The notes below the pieces were generated by a model. That model saw only the letters and a program-made list of their open reading frames with translations. It was not told where the DNA came from and ran no database searches. Shown here one piece after another: positions 1,522-40,875 of a DNA stretch of 42,375 nucleotides. The position numbers and the translations under genes are program-made. Source of the stretch: Burkholderiaceae bacterium (GTDB lineage: Bacteria; Pseudomonadota; Gammaproteobacteria; Burkholderiales; Burkholderiaceae_D). The first letter of the stretch is position 1, and each line of letters opens with the position of its first letter. The stretch is from the NCBI GenBank assembly GCA_019745005.1, contig JAIETO010000202.1, forward strand, positions 1-42,375. The letters are read 5' to 3'.

Positions 1522-4500
1522 TTACTTGAGTGAGAAATCAACGCGATTCGGCTTTCCTTTATCTTGAATGCCTTCTGCATTCAATTTCGGCGCGATTAAA
1601 AACATCCTGTCTGAACCGACTTCAGCTTCTTTTTGAAGATAGTCACGTACAGTATCCGCACGTTTTTGTGCCAACTCCCGCAAGAGTTCACCGCCAATTG
1701 GTATGTTGTTCAACAACAATTCCATCATCTGCTCAGGCGGCAAGGTCTTTGCAATGCCTAGCGCGTTTCTTGGCTTGCTTATTTTCTCTGACTGATAAAT
1801 GTCACTGATGTATTTTTGTCGATCCGCTTGAGTGACGGCAAGCTCATTTAACAGTACATTTTTATCGATTTTTTGTGCGTCTCGAAATTTTAGGGCGCGA
1901 ACTTTTCGATCAAATATGTGCAAGCGCAATGCATCGCTATCGGTCTTCTCATCCGCCCGTCCCGTAATATCGAGCTTGAGCGCCGCGCGATTCTTGAGGG
2001 CTTTGGCAAGGCTATCTAACTTCGTCTTTGATTCTGTGCTGAGTTCGCTCGTACCGTCCTGAAACTCCACGTAGGCGAGTTCCTCCCCGCCGCCAAAAAG
2101 TGAGCCTAGCAACGCAAATGGCGAAGTGACCGCCTTCGTAATTAAATTCACAAAAACTTTGAAAATGATGCCGCCAACCGAAAACTGAGGATCAGAAAGT
2201 GAACCTGATATGGGCAAATTGATTGAAATACGACCATCGTTATCCTTCAGAAGCGCGACAGCCAACAACACGGGTAATCGCGTTGCATTCGGGTTATCAA
2301 TACGTGCGCCAAAAGTAAGTTGGTCTAAAGTCACTTCATTCTCGGCACGCAGTTGCTCGCCCTCTAAGTGGTAACTTACTTGAACGGTTAATTTACCTTT
2401 CTCAATGCCGTAACCCGCGTACTTCGCGGCATACGGCGTTAAGCGCGTTAATTCAATGCCATTTGCACTGCCTTTCATGTCCAGAAAAATGGGCGAACTG
2501 AGAGGATTAACCGTACCCGAAATTTTAACGGGCGCATCACGGTCAATCTTACCCAGTAGCTCTAAGCTGGCTGGCTGGGGCATATCCGACGCAATTGCAG
2601 CAACTCGGCCGTTGATATCGGTCAAATTAGCGACGTAATTAGGCTTAATAAAGTTGTCAGTAAAATTAATATTTCCCCCTTTGAGGAGAATTTCGCCAAT
2701 ACGTATGGTCGGCTTTTTCGGCGTTAGCACTTGAGCAGAGTGAGGTGCGGCAGGCTCCACTTTGGTTTCGACAGCGGTCTCTGCTGGTGACGTGCTCGCA
2801 TCTGCTTCCGCCTTGTTTTTCGGCGCGTTAGATTGCGCTGCGCCTTGCAGGTTCAACACGCCCTTTTCAGATAAAACGAGTTTTGCAAAAAAGTCGTTCA
2901 AGCTGAGCCTGCCTATACTCAAGGAATTCAGATTACTCAAACTCGTCAGAGTTTGGTCTATGCCACCAAAATTGGCATCAATTTTTTCAATCGAAATCGA
3001 CTTCCACTCGAGAAAATCATCAAGCTCGCCTGGCTGCAAAAACTTAAACCCGTCTAGCTTCGCACCGCCAACAAATGAGGCTTGTAGTGTCTGTTTGCTG
3101 GCTTCCTTACTAGCGTCCTTTTCTGTGCCCTGACTTTTGCGCACTAAATTTAAGACGTTGGTTTTCCCCTTGATGTCGAGATTCCCCCTTTGAACATCCA
3201 TCTTTAAAATTGGCGCCAAGTAGGGCGACAACAAGGAGACAGGCAAGGCTTTACCATCAACATCAATATTCACTTTGTTGAAATTTTGCGTTGCGTTCGC
3301 GCTTAGCGCCAAACGCCCGAGCCGATTAAATTGCGCTGAAAAATCGATGCGACTCTCGCCGGTAAGCTCGCTATTGATCTGATCTACTTTCAGCATCAGA
3401 TTGTCGACACGCCCTTTCACCGTCGGGCTCACGCTCACATCAACCAAACTAAATGCCGCCGCATTCACGTTAGCGTCACGCAAATTCACGCGCCACTGTT
3501 TTGCAGAATTTTTTGGCGCAGCGTCTTGGTTTGCCAACGCGGACCTTGTTATTGAGCTCGCTGAAGGAATCGAGGTGGCGACGGCTGGTGCAGATGCTTG
3601 CCGCAAAATGTTCATCAGCCCAATTGTCGCTTGGCTGTCACGAATAAATTCCGCATTCAAGCCATCAATAGTCAATCCATCGACATCGAGCAGTTGCTGC
3701 TCCAAATCGGCATTCATCTTTTTTAAGTTAAATGCCTTAAATTGCAACTGTCCACTCGCTTTTTGCCTTGGACTTAATTTAAATTCCTGCACTTGCAGAC
3801 TGATGTCGCTGAACTTTAGCTTTCCATCCATCCTGTTGATCATCATCTGCGCTTGCGCTTCGCCTTCCACCTTCGCATTTACATACGGGTTCAAATACGA
3901 CTGAAAATCATTGATGCGAATTCCCTCACTTTTAAGATCCAACATGGCGTTCAAACTTATTGGATGGAATTCACCCGACATGCTCAATTTTTGCTGCGTA
4001 CCAAGCTCCGCGCTTGACGTGATCTGCGCAGGCCGGGCGTCGACTTTGGAAGAGAGATTCTTAACATTTAGCTCAACATTGCGCACCTCAAGTATTTGGC
4101 TAGGTTGCGCAAAAAAATCATCGCGCCAATGAATTTGACCCTTAGCGACAGTCAAATCGGCGAGGAGCAAGTTCGCTTGCGTTTTCGCATCTTTAGCTAT
4201 GTTGTTTGATTTTGCCGTTTGCGCCTGTGCTTCTGATGGGCTTTTTTGCGGCATTAATTTCGCCACATTCAAAAGACCTTTTTTATTCATATTTAGCCAA
4301 ATTTCTGGCGATGTGAGACTTATTTTTTCAACTTCTCCTGAAGCATTAAGCACGTTGACCTGCTTTAGTTTGACTGCAAAAGTCTCTACGTTTAAAAGCG
4401 GCGTCGCAGCTTGATCTTGTATGGCGACTTGATCGACGCGGACATCGCCGCCTAAGAGAATTTCATTTATTTTTTTCTTGCGACTAAACGTTAAATCAAG

Positions 4501-5337
4501 CTTGGTGCTGAGGTGCGCTTTACTCAAGGTAAATGGCAAGGCAACGGGCGAATACGCGATGTATTCCGTCAAATCAAGCCCAGAGATATCCATCGCCAAA
4601 CTCGTATCCAAATCATCAACAAATGGTTTGCTACGTGCCTTTAAAGAAAAACGTGCGCCGTTCACTTGTGCAGAAAACGCAGGTTGCACAAAGCTTTGAA
4701 TTGCGGACGGAAAATTAGAGACAAAGGGAAGTCCAATCTGTATGTCTTTGATGGCGATTTCTTTACCAACGGCGTCGTCCGTAAAACGAAGCTGGCTGTT
4801 TTTCACTTGGATGTTCGCAATCGAGAATCGCACAGGTGAGTCATTTTTCGGCGCGGACTCTAGTCGCTCCAGAATATCCGTGTAGTTATAGCGTGAAAAA
4901 TTACCTACCGAGGTGCGCACTAAGTGCATATCGAATTGATCAATCAAAATTTCATCGAGCACGAGAGCGCGATGAAACACGGACGATAGAGATAAATTGA
5001 CCGCCGCTTCTTTGACTTTGAGTGCCGGCGTTTTGCCATCGACTTCATACAAAGTGATGGCATCGAAACTCGTGCGCAAGGTAAATGGCGAAAAGTGAAT
5101 GGCGCCTATGTCGATTTTTCGGCCAATTTTTTCAGCCGCTACGGCCGTGATTGTTTTATGCAGGTACGAAGGCAAAAATGCCCAGCTCACCACCGCAAAG
5201 ATCGCGAAAATGATCAGCGCGATGAAAGTTAGCTTACGCGCACGATGGAAATACGTCGATTTCTTCCAATGCGCAAACTTACCGGTCTGATCTGGGTCCA
5301 AATTTAGCTCCTTGCCACATTCAATGCTGCTTGGCAT
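1522..5337 (-). CDS. DUF748 / AsmA-like envelope protein, 1271 aa
   Basis: A very long protein with one N-terminal membrane anchor (about residues 34-56, preceded by basic residues). A periplasmic body follows, with the repeated beta-rich style of AsmA/TamB-like proteins: conserved phrases such as KIGRKIDIGAIHFSPFTL near the start, and a DUF748 section at about 900-1100 (LTRLTPYAAKYAGYGIEKG). A low-complexity Ala/Pro/Glu linker lies in the middle. The C-terminus after the GGGEELAYVEF segment resembles an OmpA-like tail, as usual in this family. Relatives are thought to act in outer-membrane lipid transport or envelope integrity; the exact role of this one is unknown. It follows hutI on the same strand but is separated from it by a repeat element, so it is probably a separate unit. 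Confidence 0.85.
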   Translation of the reverse strand: MPSSIECGKELNLDPDQTGKFAHWKKSTYFHRARKLTFIALIIFAIFAVVSWAFLPSYLHKTITAVAAEKIGRKIDIGAIHFSPFTLRTSFDAITLYEVDGKTPALKVKEAAVNLSLSSVFHRALVLDEILIDQFDMHLVRTSVGNFSRYNYTDILERLESAPKNDSPVRFSIANIQVKNSQLRFTDDAVGKEIAIKDIQIGLPFVSNFPSAIQSFVQPAFSAQVNGARFSLKARSKPFVDDLDTSLAMDISGLDLTEYIAYSPVALPFTLSKAHLSTKLDLTFSRKKKINEILLGGDVRVDQVAIQDQAATPLLNVETFAVKLKQVNVLNASGEVEKISLTSPEIWLNMNKKGLLNVAKLMPQKSPSEAQAQTAKSNNIAKDAKTQANLLLADLTVAKGQIHWRDDFFAQPSQILEVRNVELNVKNLSSKVDARPAQITSSAELGTQQKLSMSGEFHPISLNAMLDLKSEGIRINDFQSYLNPYVNAKVEGEAQAQMMINRMDGKLKFSDISLQVQEFKLSPRQKASGQLQFKAFNLKKMNADLEQQLLDVDGLTIDGLNAEFIRDSQATIGLMNILRQASAPAVATSIPSASSITRSALANQDAAPKNSAKQWRVNLRDANVNAAAFSLVDVSVSPTVKGRVDNLMLKVDQINSELTGESRIDFSAQFNRLGRLALSANATQNFNKVNIDVDGKALPVSLLSPYLAPILKMDVQRGNLDIKGKTNVLNLVRKSQGTEKDASKEASKQTLQASFVGGAKLDGFKFLQPGELDDFLEWKSISIEKIDANFGGIDQTLTSLSNLNSLSIGRLSLNDFFAKLVLSEKGVLNLQGAAQSNAPKNKAEADASTSPAETAVETKVEPAAPHSAQVLTPKKPTIRIGEILLKGGNINFTDNFIKPNYVANLTDINGRVAAIASDMPQPASLELLGKIDRDAPVKISGTVNPLSSPIFLDMKGSANGIELTRLTPYAAKYAGYGIEKGKLTVQVSYHLEGEQLRAENEVTLDQLTFGARIDNPNATRLPVLLAVALLKDNDGRISINLPISGSLSDPQFSVGGIIFKVFVNLITKAVTSPFALLGSLFGGGEELAYVEFQDGTSELSTESKTKLDSLAKALKNRAALKLDITGRADEKTDSDALRLHIFDRKVRALKFRDAQKIDKNVLLNELAVTQADRQKYISDIYQSEKISKPRNALGIAKTLPPEQMMELLLNNIPIGGELLRELAQKRADTVRDYLQKEAEVGSDRMFLIAPKLNAEGIQDKGKPNRVDFSLK

Positions 5338-5387
5338 TATCGCGCTCTTATAATTTTATACAGTGAATTATTGTTAAATTTCTTTCC

Positions 5388-11032: not shown

Positions 11033-11428
11033 TTATTTCTTAGGTTTGTCTTGGCGCTTGCCCGCTGCGGTGGAAGGCAAGTAGCTCAACGGGTCATTCG
11101 TACCTGAAGCATAAGCTGTCATCACTGTGCTTGGGCGCATGCACGTCGCACCTAACACGCGAGAATCTGCAGAAACCGAATTCACACACACCTGCAAACT
11201 TTGCACCTTGGCTTGTGGAATACCAGCCGCGCCAGCGATTGCGACAACATCACGATGATCCGCGCCAGCGGCGATTAAGTGGTCTACCGTTGCTTGTAAA
11301 TTGCGGCTGGATGTCAAGGCAGTAAAAATGCCGTCTCTCGATATATCCACTTTTGTTTCAGCCGTTGCAGCAACAGCGCTGCATGCCATCACAGAACCCA
11401 ACACCGCACTAATAAGAATTTTTTTCAT
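11033..11428 (-). CDS. Small secreted protein of unknown function
   Basis: A 131-residue protein with a clear signal peptide (MKKILISAVLGSVMACSAVA, cleavage near residues 20-24). The mature part has alternating Ala/Val-rich stretches, two cysteines (in VCVN and ATCM) that could form a disulphide, and a basic tail (GKRQDKPKK). The start at 11428 is fixed by the signal peptide and a very strong AGGAGGGG site; the longer frame has neither. I do not recognise a family. It follows the peptide N-methyltransferase by about 170 bases on the same strand and ends at a good terminator, so it could be the last gene of that transcript or have its own promoter. Confidence 0.85.
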   Translation of the reverse strand: MKKILISAVLGSVMACSAVAATAETKVDISRDGIFTALTSSRNLQATVDHLIAAGADHRDVVAIAGAAGIPQAKVQSLQVCVNSVSADSRVLGATCMRPSTVMTAYASGTNDPLSYLPSTAAGKRQDKPKK

Positions 11429-11601
11429 GATCACCCCTCCTGAATTGAACAAACTGGACAAACTATTTTGTCGCGCACTTTGATTCTAATTAATTTTGCC
11501 GCAAACGCAAAGCAAAAACGCAGAATCTGATGTTCCTACACCATGCATTTAAGTCACTGATTTAAAAGCATAAAACTTTAGCAATGCTTAAAAGTCCGAG
11601 G

Positions 11602-12441
11602 CTATGATACAGACGCTTCTGATAGTTCAGAAACCGTCCCGAGAGCGGGCAACGCCTTTAATCTGTCAATGATTACTTGGTCAAATTGCATCGCTGCCGC
11701 TGGCGGAATTACCAGCGTGGTGATTTGCTTTAAGCTCGCCTGCGGTAGATCGCGCAAACGAATTTTGTCCTGCCGCGTTTGCTCTAATGGATGGGTCGCC
11801 GCCTCATACAAGATCACCTCATGATCAAGCGGGTAATCTCGCGCCAGCTTATCCACCAAGACTTGCAAGCGCGCCGCGTCGGTATCAAAACGCTTTAAGC
11901 TCAACTCCCCTGCCAACCCCGGTTGCCACAAAATCAGTAAGCAAGTCGGGTCAATCTTGCGCTGATAAATCATAAACTGCGTGGTTTCCATGGCTTGCAC
12001 GCCCGTTTTGCCAGGGTCAATACCAATATCGGCCACCAGACAATCTTCCGCTGAAATACCCGGCTCCATGTGGGCAGAAAAACCCTCGGCGCGCGCGCCT
12101 TCAATCGCCATGTGCGAGATGCAAGCAAAGATACCGGGATGCCCGTAAAACGCGGCGCACACGGTTTTTCCTTCACGCACCGCTTGCAATATGGTTTCTG
12201 TCATGCGCCGATACGTGTCGCGCCGATTTTTACCTTCAACGTCGCAATCGCTGTAATAGCCCAAGAGACAAACATATTCTTTGGCGATACCTTGTAACCA
12301 TTTGCGGGCAAAAACATTGGGCACGGCAGCAATAACCACATCGGCAGTTTCAATGTAACTCTTTGCAATCGGTGTGAGTTGCCCCGCCATGCGCATGCCG
12401 GTGCCGACGCAAATGAGTTTGCCTTGTTTTTGAGTGTTCAT
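11602..12441 (-). CDS. Split-borosin peptide backbone N-methyltransferase
   Basis: A 279-residue SAM-dependent enzyme of the tetrapyrrole-methylase fold whose motifs match borosin alpha-N-methyltransferases, which methylate backbone amides of a precursor peptide. Seen: VGTGM (12-16) at the N-terminal Rossmann-type strand; YY at 62-63; GKNRRDTY (70-77); FYGHPG (98-103); and EPGISAEDCLVADIGIDP (126-143). From memory of fungal OphMA, its catalytic Tyr66, Arg72, Tyr76 and Tyr98 align with Tyr63, Arg73, Tyr77 and Tyr99 here. The protein ends soon after the catalytic domain and has no clasp or core peptide, so it must act in trans, as SonM does in Shewanella. The precursor candidate is at 14487-14717. 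The ribosome site is weak. Assignment as an ordinary cobalamin or porphyrin methylase is unlikely, because no such pathway gene is near. Confidence 0.88.
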   Translation of the reverse strand: MNTQKQGKLICVGTGMRMAGQLTPIAKSYIETADVVIAAVPNVFARKWLQGIAKEYVCLLGYYSDCDVEGKNRRDTYRRMTETILQAVREGKTVCAAFYGHPGIFACISHMAIEGARAEGFSAHMEPGISAEDCLVADIGIDPGKTGVQAMETTQFMIYQRKIDPTCLLILWQPGLAGELSLKRFDTDAARLQVLVDKLARDYPLDHEVILYEAATHPLEQTRQDKIRLRDLPQASLKQITTLVIPPAAAMQFDQVIIDRLKALPALGTVSELSEASVS

Positions 12442-12537
12442 AGATAAGTGACGTGCGGAAGATTAATCGTGAGTTCAGCTTGCAAAAAGAAACTGGTTGA
12501 AAGGATTTACGGTCAAAGCAAAACAAAGAAACTTGCC

Positions 12538-12595
12538 GCAGAGGCGCAGAGGTCGCAGAGAAAACCATCATTCTCCGCGACCTTTGCGCCTCTGC
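12538..12595. repeat. Long hairpin repeat between the GGDEF and methyltransferase genes
   Basis: Two 25-base arms (12538-12562 and 12571-12595) match as an inverted repeat at 23 of 25 positions around an 8-base loop. The arms are built of repeated GCAGAGG/CGCAGAG units. It belongs to the same general type as the repeat at 17191-17312. It separates the GGDEF gene from the methyltransferase gene and could stall or stabilise the transcript. Confidence 0.8.
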
Positions 12596-12692
12596 TGCGA
12601 GATTGCAAGACAAATGTATCAATACACACGTTTGACGAACTTCGACTGTTGAAAACGCTCCACGGCAAGCAGACAATTATGCACAAAAGTGT

Positions 12693-14450
12693 TTACTCGT
12701 AGACGGACACTCTATTACGTCCATTGTTTTTGGAAACGTACAGAGCTTTATCTGCGGCTGCCAATGTTTCTTCAAAACTTTGTAGACCATGCTTACCGCG
12801 TGAAGCGGCGCCAAAGCTGGCGGAAATTGAAAACTGATAACCACAATCGGTGGTATTAATTTCTTCAACTACAGCACGCCAACGTTCCGCGCAGGCCAGT
12901 ACTTCGTCGTCTGTTAAGTCCACCAAGCACAAGCCAAATTCTTCGCCACCCAAGCGGCCAAATACATCATTCTTACGCAGCGTTTTTTGGATGGCAGCGC
13001 ATACGTTTTTCAACACCCAATCGCCTGAGGCATGCCCAAACGTGTCGTTGATTTTCTTGAAGTTATCCATGTCGAATAACACCAAACTGACCTGTTGGTC
13101 AGCGCGTTTAAAGATGAGATTGCAGCAGGCAATGAAATGGGCGCGATTGCTGACTTGGGTTAAGCCGTCCATTTGCGCAGAATAACGGAAGAGATTTTTT
13201 TGTCGCCACGTGCGCATCAGCCAAGCGCCCAAAATGGCGACCAGCACGGTAATTAAAGTCGTGAGTAAAACGAGGTTTTGGTTTTTACCGTATTGCAACT
13301 GCTTTTCTACAGTGAGAATTTTATTTTTTTGCTCAAGCAAGGTGAGTTGATTAGCTTTGTCTTGAGAATCGAATTTGACGCGTTGATACGCAAGGTTCTT
13401 TTGTAATTGATCGTCGAGTACCTTCTTCTTAAGTGCCAGATTGATGTCGTAATAATCAATGGCGCTATTAAGTTGGCCTTGTGCTCGTTTTAAACTTGCC
13501 ATCGTTTCACTTGTCCGCTCTAGCATTTGCACAGAGTTTTCCTTCTTCGCTCTTTGAAATGCGCGCAAACCAAACCGCTCTGCGTTGGGAAGATCATTGC
13601 GTCGAATATATGCCCGTGCTAATGCTTCTTCTAACTGCACCAAGTAGTCCGAACTTCCATTGGACTTGATGAGTGCATACAACAATGGCAGTCCAGCGCG
13701 AATTCCATCATCATTCCGACCTGAATTGATTAGGTCGACAGCAACTATACTTTTGACAAAAAGGCTGATGACCTTCCTCTCCGATAAATCACATGCTGCG
13801 ACTGCATCCTTTTGCTTACTTTGTACACCCTCGGAATTCGCCATCAAAAAATTAATTTCAACGATATTTGCTAGGCCATAACATTTTGCCGCCAAACGAT
13901 TCTCGGCGGTTGCAATCGCCAGCATGCGTTCGGCAAACCTTAATGACTCATCAAAACCATTCAAGGAATTCGCTAGACGAATAGCGCCCTGCAGGGTCGA
14001 TACCTTGGAGTCGACATCGGTCAATCTCTCTAAAACCGAAATACTTTTGTTCAGCTCGACGAGGGCATTTTCATATTCTCCAATCGCAACATAGGCGTCG
14101 GATAATTCATACGAAAACTTAGAGATTAAGTTAGGATCACGCACATTCTTAACGTATGACAAAACAAGTTCTATGCGTGCCTTCTGTTGGCCAGTCATAC
14201 CCAGCGCTGACGCTGACAAAAGATAAAATTCATCACGTTGCTTGTCGTCGAACTGCAGCGAACGCTCCTTTAGCTTCTGAATAGTGACTAGGGCGCTCGA
14301 TGGCGAACTATCAATCTGCTCCCGTACCTGTCGAAACAGAGTATCAACAGAAAGTACATCTTCAGAAATTGCAGAAGAAGAAATAAAAAAAACGCCAAAT
14401 ACAAAGATTGACGTTTTTAGTAGACCTAACAAAGATTGGCCGAAGTTCAT
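12693..14450 (-). CDS. Periplasmic TPR sensor with GGDEF diguanylate cyclase domain
   Basis: A 585-residue protein with a signal sequence or anchor (about 8-28), then a long helical TPR-like sensor region (about 35-350, for example DAYVAIGEYENALVELNKSI). A coiled-coil stretch follows at about 345-395, then a membrane segment (about 400-420: LVLLTTLITVLVAILGAWLM) and a C-terminal GGDEF domain. The active-site motif is GGEEF, with an RKND inhibitory site five residues before it, so it should make cyclic di-GMP and be product-inhibited. It lies 36 bases after the borosin precursor gene and before the methyltransferase, all on one strand. This position may link the peptide pathway to cyclic di-GMP, or the gene may simply have landed there. 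Confidence 0.93.
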   Translation of the reverse strand: MNFGQSLLGLLKTSIFVFGVFFISSSAISEDVLSVDTLFRQVREQIDSSPSSALVTIQKLKERSLQFDDKQRDEFYLLSASALGMTGQQKARIELVLSYVKNVRDPNLISKFSYELSDAYVAIGEYENALVELNKSISVLERLTDVDSKVSTLQGAIRLANSLNGFDESLRFAERMLAIATAENRLAAKCYGLANIVEINFLMANSEGVQSKQKDAVAACDLSERKVISLFVKSIVAVDLINSGRNDDGIRAGLPLLYALIKSNGSSDYLVQLEEALARAYIRRNDLPNAERFGLRAFQRAKKENSVQMLERTSETMASLKRAQGQLNSAIDYYDINLALKKKVLDDQLQKNLAYQRVKFDSQDKANQLTLLEQKNKILTVEKQLQYGKNQNLVLLTTLITVLVAILGAWLMRTWRQKNLFRYSAQMDGLTQVSNRAHFIACCNLIFKRADQQVSLVLFDMDNFKKINDTFGHASGDWVLKNVCAAIQKTLRKNDVFGRLGGEEFGLCLVDLTDDEVLACAERWRAVVEEINTTDCGYQFSISASFGAASRGKHGLQSFEETLAAADKALYVSKNNGRNRVSVYE

Positions 14451-14486
14451 TTAGTTTAAACGCTCAGAAACTACTGAAAGCGTTCA

Positions 14487-14717
14487 TTAATTCGACTCAG
14501 GATCTGGTGAAGTGTGAGTAACCTGGATTTTATCTGCATCAATAGACTCCACCCCGGCAACACTTGCCATTTTCGCAGTATCGCCCGACAAAAATGCAGC
14601 TTGTTCATCAGCCGACAAACCAAAATTAGTCATCGCGCCCACTGGGTCTTGGTTATGAGCTTCACGCGCAGCGGCGTCTTGATCGAGGGAATTCAAATAA
14701 TCTAATAACGTTGGCAT
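14487..14717 (-). CDS. Borosin precursor peptide (leader with binding domain plus core)
   Basis: A 76-residue acidic peptide. Residues 1-57 form a helical domain of the LigA-like / borosin-binding type (LLDYLNSLDQD, then MTNFGLSADEQAAFLSGD), the same domain that forms the clasp of fungal OphMA and the leader of Shewanella SonA. The short tail after residue 58, with the segment KIQVTHTSPDPESN at 63-76, is the likely core. By analogy with SonA, whose alternating branched residues are methylated, I infer Ile64 and Val66 as the most likely targets. The start at 14717 has GTGAG 6-7 bases before it. The gene is followed by the GGDEF gene at 36 bases and, further on, by the methyltransferase. Database annotation as a LigA dioxygenase subunit would be misleading, since it is far too short and no partner subunit is near. 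Confidence 0.85.
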   Translation of the reverse strand: MPTLLDYLNSLDQDAAAREAHNQDPVGAMTNFGLSADEQAAFLSGDTAKMASVAGVESIDADKIQVTHTSPDPESN

Positions 14718-14838: not shown

Positions 14839-15039
14839 TTAACTTGACTTCATTTGTGGGAAGTCTAAATCGACTTCGCGAAAGTCACTGATTTCTCGTA
14901 ACACGCCAACTCGCCCCACGAACGGGCTACGTTCATGCCAGCCGCCGTTTTTAACGGGCACCAACCAATATCCGTCTTCATCATGCGCAACACAAAATGG
15001 CGGCGTTTGCATATATTCGTAAAATTTGATAGCGCTCAT
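14839..15039 (-). CDS. 66-residue protein of unknown function
   Basis: Starts at 15039 (MSAIKFYEYM), 11 bases after the stop of the M14 carboxypeptidase gene, so it is probably its operon partner. The sequence is rich in aromatic residues (YGYW-like segment EDGYWLVPV, GGWHERSPF), has one cysteine and ends acidic. It has no signal peptide and no membrane segment. I do not recognise a family; the coding case rests on the tight spacing and normal composition. An upstream in-frame start would overlap the carboxypeptidase gene and adds nothing protein-like. Confidence 0.65.
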   Translation of the reverse strand: MSAIKFYEYMQTPPFCVAHDEDGYWLVPVKNGGWHERSPFVGRVGVLREISDFREVDLDFPQMKSS

Positions 15040-15050
15040 CGCGTTGCCAT

Positions 15051-16772
15051 CTATTTGATTTGTGCCGTATCGAACACAGAAAATACTGGGTAACGCCGCC
15101 ATTCTGGCTCACGATAACGCTGTCCGTGCTGGAATATGAAGCCCAATACGGCACTTTGGTCGCTTAGTAAACTGGGATTGGCCTCTTTCCACCGTTCAAA
15201 TTTTTCGCGCAATCCAGGCTCTTCTTCTAGCATGGCGGCAGCGCTGTCTTCGAACACATAGTCGGAAAAATTTTCTTTTTTCTCTAAGATGCTATTGAAG
15301 AAACCCCAGCGAAAAAAACTATCGTGCGCTTGTGGTTCCAAGGTTTCGACGGCGTAGCGGGCACTTTCTTGGTTTAAGAAAACCAGCACATCGCCTGCCC
15401 TCGCTAATACGGTTTCTTGTTGCGTGCTTAAGCTAAGTTCGTCGTGAAAGAGGTGCCCTTCGTAAGCACCCGCGCGCGATGTGACGCTAACGACATGGTA
15501 GCTTTGCACTTGCAGCGCTTGCTCTTGTGTGATGCGTTTTAAGGCGACTTGATTCCATTGCAGACGTTCAATCACCTCGTGCCAGGCTTGCGGAATCAAA
15601 TAGGCTTGCGGCGTGTGCACCACATGATCTGGCACGAAATGCTCAAAATATTTAATGTCACGTTCCCAAGGTTGATTGCGGTCATAAGCAAGCCGCATGT
15701 ATTTACCCAACTTGCTGGGTCGAGTTACCGCTTGATAACCGCGAAAGCGGAAGTAACTTGGCTTGTCGACATTAGCCCGCCACCGCACTGACCACTGCGT
15801 CTTTGCAGCCGCTTCTCGCTTCGCTAAGGTTCGTGCAGTTTGAATTTGCGCCGCATGTTGCACACTAAACTGCAAGACGGATTCGACTAAGTGGCGCATT
15901 GCTGCATAACGGTCCGCATAGGGTTTAAGCATGTGCGTTTCTGGCATAAAGCCTAAGGTGTGATGCAGCGCGGCGTAGCCAGTTGAAAAACGCGGCACTT
16001 CAAGAAAATCTTCGATTCCGTCGTCGGGCGTTTCTTTCACAGGGTTCACGTATGGGCAGGTCGGCCAGCCGCGCTGCTCCATCTCTTTAAAAATGGCAGG
16101 CACCATTTTTTCGCGCAGAAAATGACCTAGATCGCCGCCCAATTTGTCGGCCTGCGTTTGAATTAAGGTCATCGTGTATTGATAATCTGCACCGTTAGAG
16201 GTATGCGTATCGACCATGACATCAGGCTGCCAAGCGCTGAAAAATTGATTAAAAACTTGTGCAGCCAAACTATCGCATTTGATGAAATCGCGGTTCAAAT
16301 CAAGATTCCGACCATTGGCGCGGAAGCCAAACATTTCCGGCCCGTCTTGGTTCACCCGCGAGGTGTTTTGTCGGTTGTGGCAGCCATCCACGTTGTACAC
16401 AGGAATAAACAGAAATACGCATTTGCCTAGCGCAGCGAGCCGCTCAGGTTGCACACAGAAATCACGCACTAAAGCCATGCAGGCGTCTATCCCTTCTGGC
16501 TCGCCGGGGTGAATGCCGTTATTGTTAAAGAACACAAAACGATTCGTGGCTTTCAAGGTACTGCGGTCAAACACGCCATCGCTAGTGATCACCCCCGCAT
16601 GCATAGGAATGCCGCTATCGGACACACCAATTTGCGTGAAATGCAGCACCTGCGGAAAGCGCGCGGAGAGTTTCTCGTAAAATGCAATACAGTCCTGCCA
16701 TGTCGTGGTTTGATTCGCATTACCGAGTTCAAACGGTGTGCGCAAATCGCTGGAGTGGGAGAGAACGTTCAT
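15051..16772 (-). CDS. M14 family zinc carboxypeptidase
   Basis: A 573-residue metallopeptidase. Zinc ligands His88 and Glu91 lie in NNNGIHPGEPEG, and the third ligand His190 lies in DTHTSNGADYQYT. The substrate-binding NLDLNRDF block is at about 156-163, and the likely catalytic Glu lies in GFMPETHMLKPY. The C-terminal 250 residues are specific to a bacterial subfamily. No signal peptide is seen, so it is probably cytoplasmic and removes or trims amino acids from peptides. The start at 16772 (MNVLSHSS) is preferred; an in-frame ATG at 16802 adds ten residues and neither has a strong ribosome site. It lies upstream of the borosin precursor on the same strand, with the 66-residue gene between, so a role in peptide trimming is possible but unproven. 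Confidence 0.9.
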   Translation of the reverse strand: MNVLSHSSDLRTPFELGNANQTTTWQDCIAFYEKLSARFPQVLHFTQIGVSDSGIPMHAGVITSDGVFDRSTLKATNRFVFFNNNGIHPGEPEGIDACMALVRDFCVQPERLAALGKCVFLFIPVYNVDGCHNRQNTSRVNQDGPEMFGFRANGRNLDLNRDFIKCDSLAAQVFNQFFSAWQPDVMVDTHTSNGADYQYTMTLIQTQADKLGGDLGHFLREKMVPAIFKEMEQRGWPTCPYVNPVKETPDDGIEDFLEVPRFSTGYAALHHTLGFMPETHMLKPYADRYAAMRHLVESVLQFSVQHAAQIQTARTLAKREAAAKTQWSVRWRANVDKPSYFRFRGYQAVTRPSKLGKYMRLAYDRNQPWERDIKYFEHFVPDHVVHTPQAYLIPQAWHEVIERLQWNQVALKRITQEQALQVQSYHVVSVTSRAGAYEGHLFHDELSLSTQQETVLARAGDVLVFLNQESARYAVETLEPQAHDSFFRWGFFNSILEKKENFSDYVFEDSAAAMLEEEPGLREKFERWKEANPSLLSDQSAVLGFIFQHGQRYREPEWRRYPVFSVFDTAQIK

Positions 16773-16843
16773 AGCAAACTCGAAGTTTTTGGTGTGCTGC
16801 ATTTTAGCACCGCTGATTTTTATCTCTAACCGAAAAAAGCCTG

Positions 16844-39874: not shown

Positions 39875-40875
39875 GAATCAGTGTGACTGGTTTTCGCCAA
39901 CTTAACACAATTGCGACCCGAATTTTTCGCTTCATATAACGCGGCGTCAGCGCGCTCAAACCAAGCATTTGGCGTGTCTTTATCGCGCAATTCTGCGACA
40001 CCTACTGAGGTGGTCACGAGGCATCCTTTGAAAATCGGTGTGTTCTCGATAAGGCTGCGCAACTCCTCCGCGAACTTGGCACTGGCCTCGAGCTGATTGC
40101 CTAGCGTGACAACCACAAACTCCTCACCGCCATAGCGATATAGGCCGTCGGTTGCGCGTATTCGACTGCGAATTAAATCGGCAACGCGAATCAGCACATC
40201 GTCGCCGACGCTATGCCCAAATTCATCATTAATTTTCTTAAAATGATCTAAATCGAGCAGAAGTAAGCAGGCGCCAAACTGGTTTACATCATCAGCACAA
40301 AGTTGTGACAATCTCTTATCAAATGCGCGCCGATTGCCCGCACCAGTCAAAAAATCTAAGCTCGCTTGTTGGTTGAGCTCACGATGTTGCAGGTTAGTGC
40401 GATGTGAAAAAATAGTTGAAAAAAGATTGATTAAGGTGAGCGTAACAATGACGCAGGCGAGGTCGAACAAAGGCATCACTTTGTATAGAAGCCAAACCAT
40501 GCAAAGCAAAGACAAACTATTGATTGCCAGAGCCTCTTTAGCGCGCAAAATAAAAAAAGCCGCAATCATGGTGGGATACGCCCAATAGACAATTGTCGAG
40601 CCGCGTAACGATAAGGCCGTCAGCATACCAATTGAATAGAAAATTGTAACCACGATGCCAGCAACGCGAACACGGCGCGTGCGCAAGACATACACGATTA
40701 CGCACAGCATGCCCGTGACAATTGCCAAATCAACGGCGCCCAGCCACCAGTTTCCTTGTATAAGCCGAATCACCCCAAAGGGAAGAATGCTGGGAATACT
40801 TAAGCCGCAAAGCAGCAGCAAAATGATCTCTTCCTTGGATCTTTTCATTGATGGGCGCTTACCGAGTAACATCAT
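39871..40875 (-). CDS. Membrane diguanylate cyclase (GGDEF)
   Basis: A 334-residue protein with about six hydrophobic spans in the first 155 residues and a C-terminal GGDEF domain. The active site is GGEEF, with an RATD inhibitory site five residues before it, so cyclic di-GMP synthesis with product inhibition is expected. The signal sensed by the membrane part is unknown. The start at 40875 overlaps the stop of the MFS gene by 4 bases (ATGA), so the two are translationally coupled; a downstream Met at 40848 is an alternative. Confidence 0.95.
   Translation of the reverse strand: MMLLGKRPSMKRSKEEIILLLLCGLSIPSILPFGVIRLIQGNWWLGAVDLAIVTGMLCVIVYVLRTRRVRVAGIVVTIFYSIGMLTALSLRGSTIVYWAYPTMIAAFFILRAKEALAINSLSLLCMVWLLYKVMPLFDLACVIVTLTLINLFSTIFSHRTNLQHRELNQQASLDFLTGAGNRRAFDKRLSQLCADDVNQFGACLLLLDLDHFKKINDEFGHSVGDDVLIRVADLIRSRIRATDGLYRYGGEEFVVVTLGNQLEASAKFAEELRSLIENTPIFKGCLVTTSVGVAELRDKDTPNAWFERADAALYEAKNSGRNCVKLAKTSHTDS

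Follow-up and report, generated by a model that had tools for sequence, protein, structure and literature searches.

The split borosin system SonM/SonA of Shewanella oneidensis, as described in the main text of PMC8429565, pairs a backbone N-methyltransferase with a separate precursor that consists of a five-helix leader and a short C-terminal core, and neither GGDEF nor diguanylate occurs in that main text. A GGDEF domain does appear in one architecture of a published borosin type scheme, whose Figure 1 legend gives no role to the domain (PMC11395268), and the available text of a review describes borosin types IV to X without naming GGDEF (PMC11285071). Here, we describe a predicted type IV split borosin locus in a stretch of 42,375 nucleotides from a Burkholderiaceae bacterium (assembly GCA_019745005.1, contig JAIETO010000202.1, positions 1 to 42,375; hereafter, the window), in which the gene of a predicted membrane-bound tetratricopeptide repeat (TPR) diguanylate cyclase lies between those of precursor and enzyme, and we weigh whether the peptide and this membrane protein form a ligand-receptor pair. 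In Gram-positive bacteria, the ComQXPA and Agr systems encode a precursor, a modifying enzyme and a membrane receptor in one locus, with signal and receptor both variable, and the RNPP proteins are cytoplasmic, peptide-binding TPR regulators. The locus in the window, which is known here from sequence alone, differs from ComQXPA and Agr in its Gram-negative host, its predicted backbone N-methylation, its TPR sensor, its cyclase output and the lack of a recognised exporter; with the RNPP proteins it shares a TPR domain as a possible peptide sensor, which is membrane-bound in the window and cytoplasmic in RNPP proteins. Matches of the sensor profile include the RapJ and RapF structures, a likeness confined to the TPR level, with higher scores for other TPR proteins.

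The three genes follow one another in the order precursor, 36 bp, cyclase, 251 bp, enzyme, with these features:

14487-14717, minus strand: SonA-type precursor, 76 amino acids, with a borosin-binding domain at about 1-53, a linker and a C-terminal core/tail (KIQVTHTSPDPESN); from the profile match to SonA and predicted helices.
14508-14528, minus strand: predicted core, codons 64-70 (I Q V T H T S), with I64 and V66 as putative methylation sites; from the SonA alignment.
12693-14450, minus strand: predicted membrane sensor diguanylate cyclase, 585 amino acids; Pfam GGDEF 3e-36, hydropathy, motifs, and a structure model with a predicted local distance difference test score (pLDDT) of 91.
Within 12693-14450, minus strand: signal or transmembrane segment 6-24, TPR domain at about 35-323 (probably periplasmic), transmembrane segment 393-411 and GGDEF domain 425-580; from hydropathy, motifs and the model.
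13275-14378, minus strand: residues 25-392 of the cyclase, its sensor part, including the cysteine pair C190/C220, a pair present in 80/80 cyclase sensors.
11602-12441, minus strand: SonM-type peptide backbone alpha-N-methyltransferase, 279 amino acids; SonM match at E 4.7e-85, invariant Y63, R73, Y77 and Y99.

The enzyme matches the Shewanella SonM structure (7ltc_A) at the E value given above, and fungal OphMA-type enzymes also match it (E 7e-48 to 3e-42). Its Tyr63, Arg73, Tyr77 and Tyr99 align with Y58, R67, Y71 and Y93 of SonM, residues that were mutated and studied and are assigned catalytic roles in the main text of PMC8429565, and all four are unchanged in each of the 36 aligned enzymes, the window's included. 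Its closest relatives are enzymes of Undibacterium, and it is 50-52% identical to the enzymes of two Shewanella-titled loci (L025 and L027). A first-pass annotation, made from the sequence alone, had placed both open reading frames at these coordinates on one and the same strand and had read them as a borosin methyltransferase with OphMA-like catalytic residues and a separate precursor, from a betaproteobacterium; these results bear it out. The alternative that it had named, a cobalamin or porphyrin methylase, is rejected by scores alone: the best cobalamin-pathway model (1.6e-4) and YabN (2.5e-8) both fall far under their cut-offs.

As a single query, the 76-residue protein matches SonA weakly (E 1.2e-4), while a family profile built from 45 precursors finds SonA at E 1.6e-20, with the next chain, an unrelated one, at 0.059. 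The model of the precursor (mean pLDDT 76, tail low) contains helices at 3-13, 15-23, 25-32, 36-44 and 47-53, the same layout of five-helix leader and short core as in SonA, which agrees with the separate precursor proposed at first pass; of the LigA-like helical domain proposed for it, the five helices are predicted, and the Pfam LigA match lies below the cut-off (20.9 versus 25.3 bits). In the alignment, I64 and V66 correspond to the methylated L63 and I65 of SonA and are our candidate methylation sites, and the core was rightly said to be unlike that of SonA. On all features testable by sequence or model, then, the pair is a type IV split borosin that shares with SonM/SonA a separate enzyme and precursor, the catalytic residues, the leader and the short C-terminal core (PMC8429565, main text), and backbone alpha-N-methylation of its core is predicted. 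It differs in the core and in gene order, precursor-sensor-enzyme in the window versus enzyme-precursor-sensor in all four Shewanella-titled loci (L025, L027, L028 and L062).

The protein encoded between them is, by its domains and its model, a transmembrane TPR diguanylate cyclase predicted to synthesise cyclic di-GMP. Its GGDEF domain carries a GGEEF motif and an RKND I-site (inhibitory-site motif), its best Pfam TPR match (TPR_12, 8.7e-7) is just under the cut-off (29.5 versus 30.1 bits), and in the model (mean pLDDT 91) the helices at 35-323 are paired and are followed by a single helix, 327-426, that passes via the membrane segment into the GGDEF domain. We infer a periplasmic TPR domain because the protein has two hydrophobic segments, one N-terminal and one at 393-411. 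A fold search with the full model returned, among the 50 matches listed, GGDEF or cyclase entries throughout and is therefore uninformative on the TPR part. In 23 relatives with the same gene order, cyclase and enzyme overlap or lie less than 70 bp apart in 19, and a second precursor occupies the gap in the other 4. The 251-bp gap of the window contains an inverted repeat (12529-12604, 34-nucleotide arms, 85% complementary) that looks like a dispersed repetitive extragenic palindromic (REP)-type element, because the genome holds 23 copies of its core 18-mer with at most one mismatch, against 0 in a reversed-pattern control.

An unrelated cyclase could have landed by chance between the genes of an ordinary split borosin pair, and GGDEF genes are many in this genome: the whole 585-residue query gave 32 matches (E <= 0.001), all of which, except the protein itself, begin at residue 302 or later, mostly in the GGDEF part. 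The sensor family profile found one further, weaker TPR protein in the same genome (contig C300, E 1.6e-22). At 39901-40437, the window has another GGDEF gene (344-residue frame), which matches the cyclase from residue 398 on only. Against a chance arrival stands the recurrence of the trio. With the enzyme as query, 62 related loci were gathered from a collection of one genome per species, and two (L024 and L063) were dropped where a contig end cuts the enzyme. In 60/60 evaluable loci, the four Shewanella-titled ones included, the enzyme has a TPR membrane sensor no more than 1.1 kb away, which contradicts the earlier remark that an inserted signalling gene is unusual; the sensor gene is the usual third member of the locus in this clade. 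These sensors comprise 40 separate cyclases, 17 cyclase-enzyme fusions and 3 histidine kinases (L037, L050 and L052). The fusions carry the cyclase in front and come mostly from Lysobacterales, with one record titled Sphingomonadales and one frame, that of L034, broken by a frameshift; they resemble the GGDEF-bearing borosin type in the Figure 1 legend of PMC11395268, from which the window differs in having its cyclase as a separate gene. Among 34 aligned cyclases, Pfam GGDEF is found in 34 and TPR_12 in 24, and the remaining sensors were identified by the family profile. At the thresholds used, the 80 cyclases of the locus set have an N-terminal hydrophobic segment in 79 cases and a second segment in 78, and all six kinases have both.

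The 62 loci were chosen through similarity to the window's enzyme, and a phylum sample of 398 genomes, drawn evenly, was added to avoid that choice of genomes (enzyme profile E <= 1e-20, sensor profile E <= 1e-8). It yielded 16 enzyme genes in 14 genomes besides the window's, and 15 of these genes adjoin a sensor, which is a cyclase in 12 cases and a hybrid histidine kinase in 3. The sole exception is L141 (G462, 1840-5364), where the enzyme domain forms residues 67-327 of a 1174-residue protein whose long C-terminal part has no Pfam match, and no TPR sensor was found in the 9 kb fetched. Conversely, strong sensor matches (E <= 1e-30) occur in 13 genomes of this sample, the window's included, and 12 of these genomes also carry the enzyme (Fisher 2e-19). 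Among the 12, G754 has its strong sensor on a different contig from the enzyme, which a kinase adjoins; the thirteenth genome (G708) has no enzyme match.

At closer range, the enzyme was found in only 3 of 399 genomes of an order sample, all three from the window's genus, and in 20 of the 43 genomes of the genus sample, two of these being doubtful (a 35-residue fragment in G024 and a gene cut by a contig end in G033). The G024 match (L144, 2647-2814) is an internally deleted remnant directly behind an M14 peptidase gene, with matches confined to the protein's start and a stretch close to its end, and neither sensor nor precursor was found in that genome. The window's sensor domain is present in 18 of the 20 genomes with the enzyme and in 0 of the 23 without it (Fisher 3e-10); in all 18 it lies on the enzyme's contig within about 3 kb, with a broken sensor frame in G016. 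The precursor profile matches 19 genomes, the same 18 plus G026, whose contig ends about 0.4 kb behind the precursor. Precursor, modifying enzyme and candidate membrane receptor are thus co-inherited in the genus, phylum and locus sets. A true neighbour behaves otherwise: the M14 carboxypeptidase gene at 15051-16802 is found in 41/43 genomes of the genus with or without the enzyme, and for this reason we regard it as a mere neighbour and reject it as the maturation protease. Taken with the 60 loci and the 15 of 16 sampled genes, the absence of the sensor from the enzyme-less genomes makes a chance insertion very improbable.

Two smaller genes flank this region. An 87-residue protein at 14839-15102, adjoining the M14 gene, has no family match and has relatives in L002, L003 and L004. 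Downstream of the enzyme, a small protein with a signal-like start (11033-11461) reached no Pfam or NCBIfam family cut-off, and its relatives stand behind the enzyme in L002, L008, L013, L014, L022 and L024.

Within the locus, the precursor stays with the sensor rather than with the enzyme. Searched by profile, the 62 loci, 19 fetched stretches and the window itself yielded 76 precursors, and for 70 of these a sensor on the same strand starts no more than 300 bp downstream, at a median distance of 16 bp. Of the other six, four (in L008, L013, L015 and L022) are second precursors placed before the enzyme, the L017 one is a tandem copy (487 bp), and the one in L023 is possibly spurious. By contrast with this constancy, the enzyme lies behind the cyclase in 23 of the 60 loci, before precursor and cyclase in 17, fused to the cyclase in 17 and before precursor and kinase in 3, and the enzyme of L132 is divergent. 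The profile detected a precursor in 53 of the 60 loci, and small candidate reading frames were seen by eye in L038, L039, L040 and L059. Precursor-sensor pairs are duplicated in L004, L033 and G031, with two pairs beside one enzyme in L004 and L033, and G641 has a second pair (L131) about 87 kb away from its enzyme. These arrangements bear on a rival explanation in which the sensor governs the making of the peptide: an unrelated envelope signal would bind the TPR domain, local cyclic di-GMP or membrane tethering would switch the methyltransferase, and the peptide would act elsewhere, for example in biofilm or competition. The 17 fusions, which would place the enzyme at the membrane beside the GGDEF domain, speak for such control; a sensor that keeps with the precursor, two pairs beside one enzyme, a pair that lies about 87 kb from the enzyme and an output that may be a histidine kinase instead of a cyclase speak against it, and we consider it rather unlikely.

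The sensors beside these precursors form a recognisable subfamily. All 34 aligned cyclases have C190 and C220 unchanged, and the pair is present in 80/80 cyclase sensors, 76 in enzyme-bearing loci and 4 outside them (L131, two in L137, and L142). It is absent from all 6 kinases and from all 16 weaker, unlinked TPR matches (a seventeenth row, L114, is the L139 kinase again), in a comparison whose sensor profile was made from cyclases with the pair and so favours matches that have it. Scores overlap, with one L137 cyclase that has the pair at 69 bits and the L050 kinase, which lacks it, at 82 bits. In the model, the two cysteines sit on neighbouring helices, and a C190-C220 disulphide in the periplasm is a reasonable guess. 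The GG[DE]EF motif is intact in 75 of the 80 cyclases, the broken L034 frame being one of the five exceptions. In some loci, the output domain itself has been exchanged, and hybrid histidine kinases with TPR sensors replace the cyclase:

L136, 4564-7416
L139, 4383-7628
L140, 1275-4499
L037, 7423-10917
L050, 8206-11790

The kinase of L052 is plain, not hybrid. In the enzyme tree (78 rows, built by a quick method), the enzymes of the kinase loci fall outside the starred group of cyclase-linked enzymes.

Sequence variability is distributed unevenly over the locus. Mean identity to the window across 21 loci falls from 71% in the enzyme through 56% in the leader (slightly lowered by an untrimmed L007 precursor start), 53% in the GGDEF domain and 41% in the sensor to 17% in core plus tail. 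Of 11 pairs of cyclases that share a locus or genome, 10 diverge more in the sensor than in the GGDEF domain; for example, the identities of sensor and GGDEF are 34 versus 81 in L033 and 41 versus 77 in L127, and both are about 20 in L137. Across 17 related loci, core similarity correlates with sensor similarity at 0.31 once enzyme and GGDEF are taken into account (18 of 2000 permutations reached this value), versus 0.11 with the enzyme and 0.08 with GGDEF in the same analysis, which may lend modest support to a pairing of ligand and receptor.

We read the three genes, with slightly better than even confidence, as a ligand-receptor unit in which the peptide or its precursor would be the ligand of a dedicated TPR receptor. 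This reading is drawn from the adjacency of precursor and sensor wherever the enzyme lies, their joint duplication, their joint presence and absence, and the exchange of output domains with the TPR domain retained; beneath it lie the identities of the three proteins, the conserved trio, a sensor that tracks the presence of the enzyme, and the cysteine pair. In the mechanism that we infer, the cytoplasmic enzyme would bind the helical leader and methylate the backbone amide at one or two positions near I64 and V66. The TPR domain of the membrane protein, whose gene directly follows that of the precursor, would then recognise either the modified peptide, freed by some protease not recognised here, or the modified precursor, and binding would alter dimer geometry along the 100-residue helix from TPR through membrane to GGDEF, raising or lowering cyclic di-GMP. 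How the peptide would reach the TPR domain is a matter of speculation: backbone methylation is credited in the abstract of PMC8429565 with helping peptides to cross membranes, and such methylation-aided crossing might apply to the window's peptide.

Several observations weigh against the ligand-receptor reading. Four changes on the enzyme tree suffice for all gene arrangements, which makes the arrangement an old one and means that neither the loci nor the counts taken from them are independent. The two partners also occur apart: sensors with no detected precursor include second copies in L002, L023, L124 and L127 as well as those of L137 and L142, and precursors without a sensor of their own are found in L008, L013, L015, L022 and, once, in G010. 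The six kinase sensors without the cysteine pair score no higher than generic TPR matches, except for the one at 82 bits, and four full-length cyclases (the first copy in L127, that of L138 and two in L137) have no standard GG[DE]EF motif. As regards covariation, some identity between short core segments arises by chance, and a sensor that varies more than its GGDEF domain may be general for cyclases, the comparison here having been made within this sensor family. Finally, the precursor has no hydrophobic signal stretch that would suggest a route to a periplasmic sensor, and among the gene families common to at least five loci (one example per family looked at) neither an exporter nor a protease common across clades was recognised.

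The last of these points are what a further explanation would predict, namely that the full-length precursor acts in the cytoplasm to regulate the sensor protein, with N-methylation of its tail as a switch, no release of a peptide, and a TPR domain that senses something else. Adjacency would then be explained without export. Yet where a histidine kinase replaces GGDEF, the TPR domain is still the shared part, and core similarity follows the sensor more than the GGDEF domain (0.31 versus 0.08, a weak effect), so that we hold regulation from the cytoplasm to be quite unlikely.

Two enzyme families near some of the loci are possible maturation steps. An aspartic-protease family lies near five gamma loci only (L023, L025, L028, L033 and L062; Pfam Asp 1.1e-18 for the L023 member, the one that was checked), gave no match in the window's own genome or the 43 genus genomes in searches run without a positive control, and is rejected as a general partner given this confinement. 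Ten gamma loci have a GNAT acetyltransferase family, two members of which were checked with Pfam. Elsewhere, a third precursor of G010 lies on another contig (L145, 3144-3410), and neither the sensor profile nor that of the enzyme matches in the surrounding 7.5 kb.

Type IV split borosins and their association with GGDEF are already published, and the functional reading of the sensor as a receptor may be the new part: in open-licence papers, a scope that leaves out the papers behind further borosin types, we found among the matches listed no published statement of a receptor, sensor or signal role for borosins. More broadly, and with somewhat less than even confidence, we propose that the split borosins of the SonM clade could serve Gram-negative bacteria as peptide signals with an N-methylated backbone, each perceived by a dedicated, adjacently encoded membrane receptor with a periplasmic TPR domain and an output through cyclic di-GMP or a histidine phosphorelay. 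The recurrence of the trio in many bacteria suggests that these peptides may be signals, and the conserved pairing of precursor and sensor yields a direct hypothesis that comes with a partner protein and, in cyclic di-GMP, a read-out. If true, this would constitute a new class of ribosomal peptide signals in Gram-negative bacteria and would explain why variable cores stand beside a conserved enzyme.

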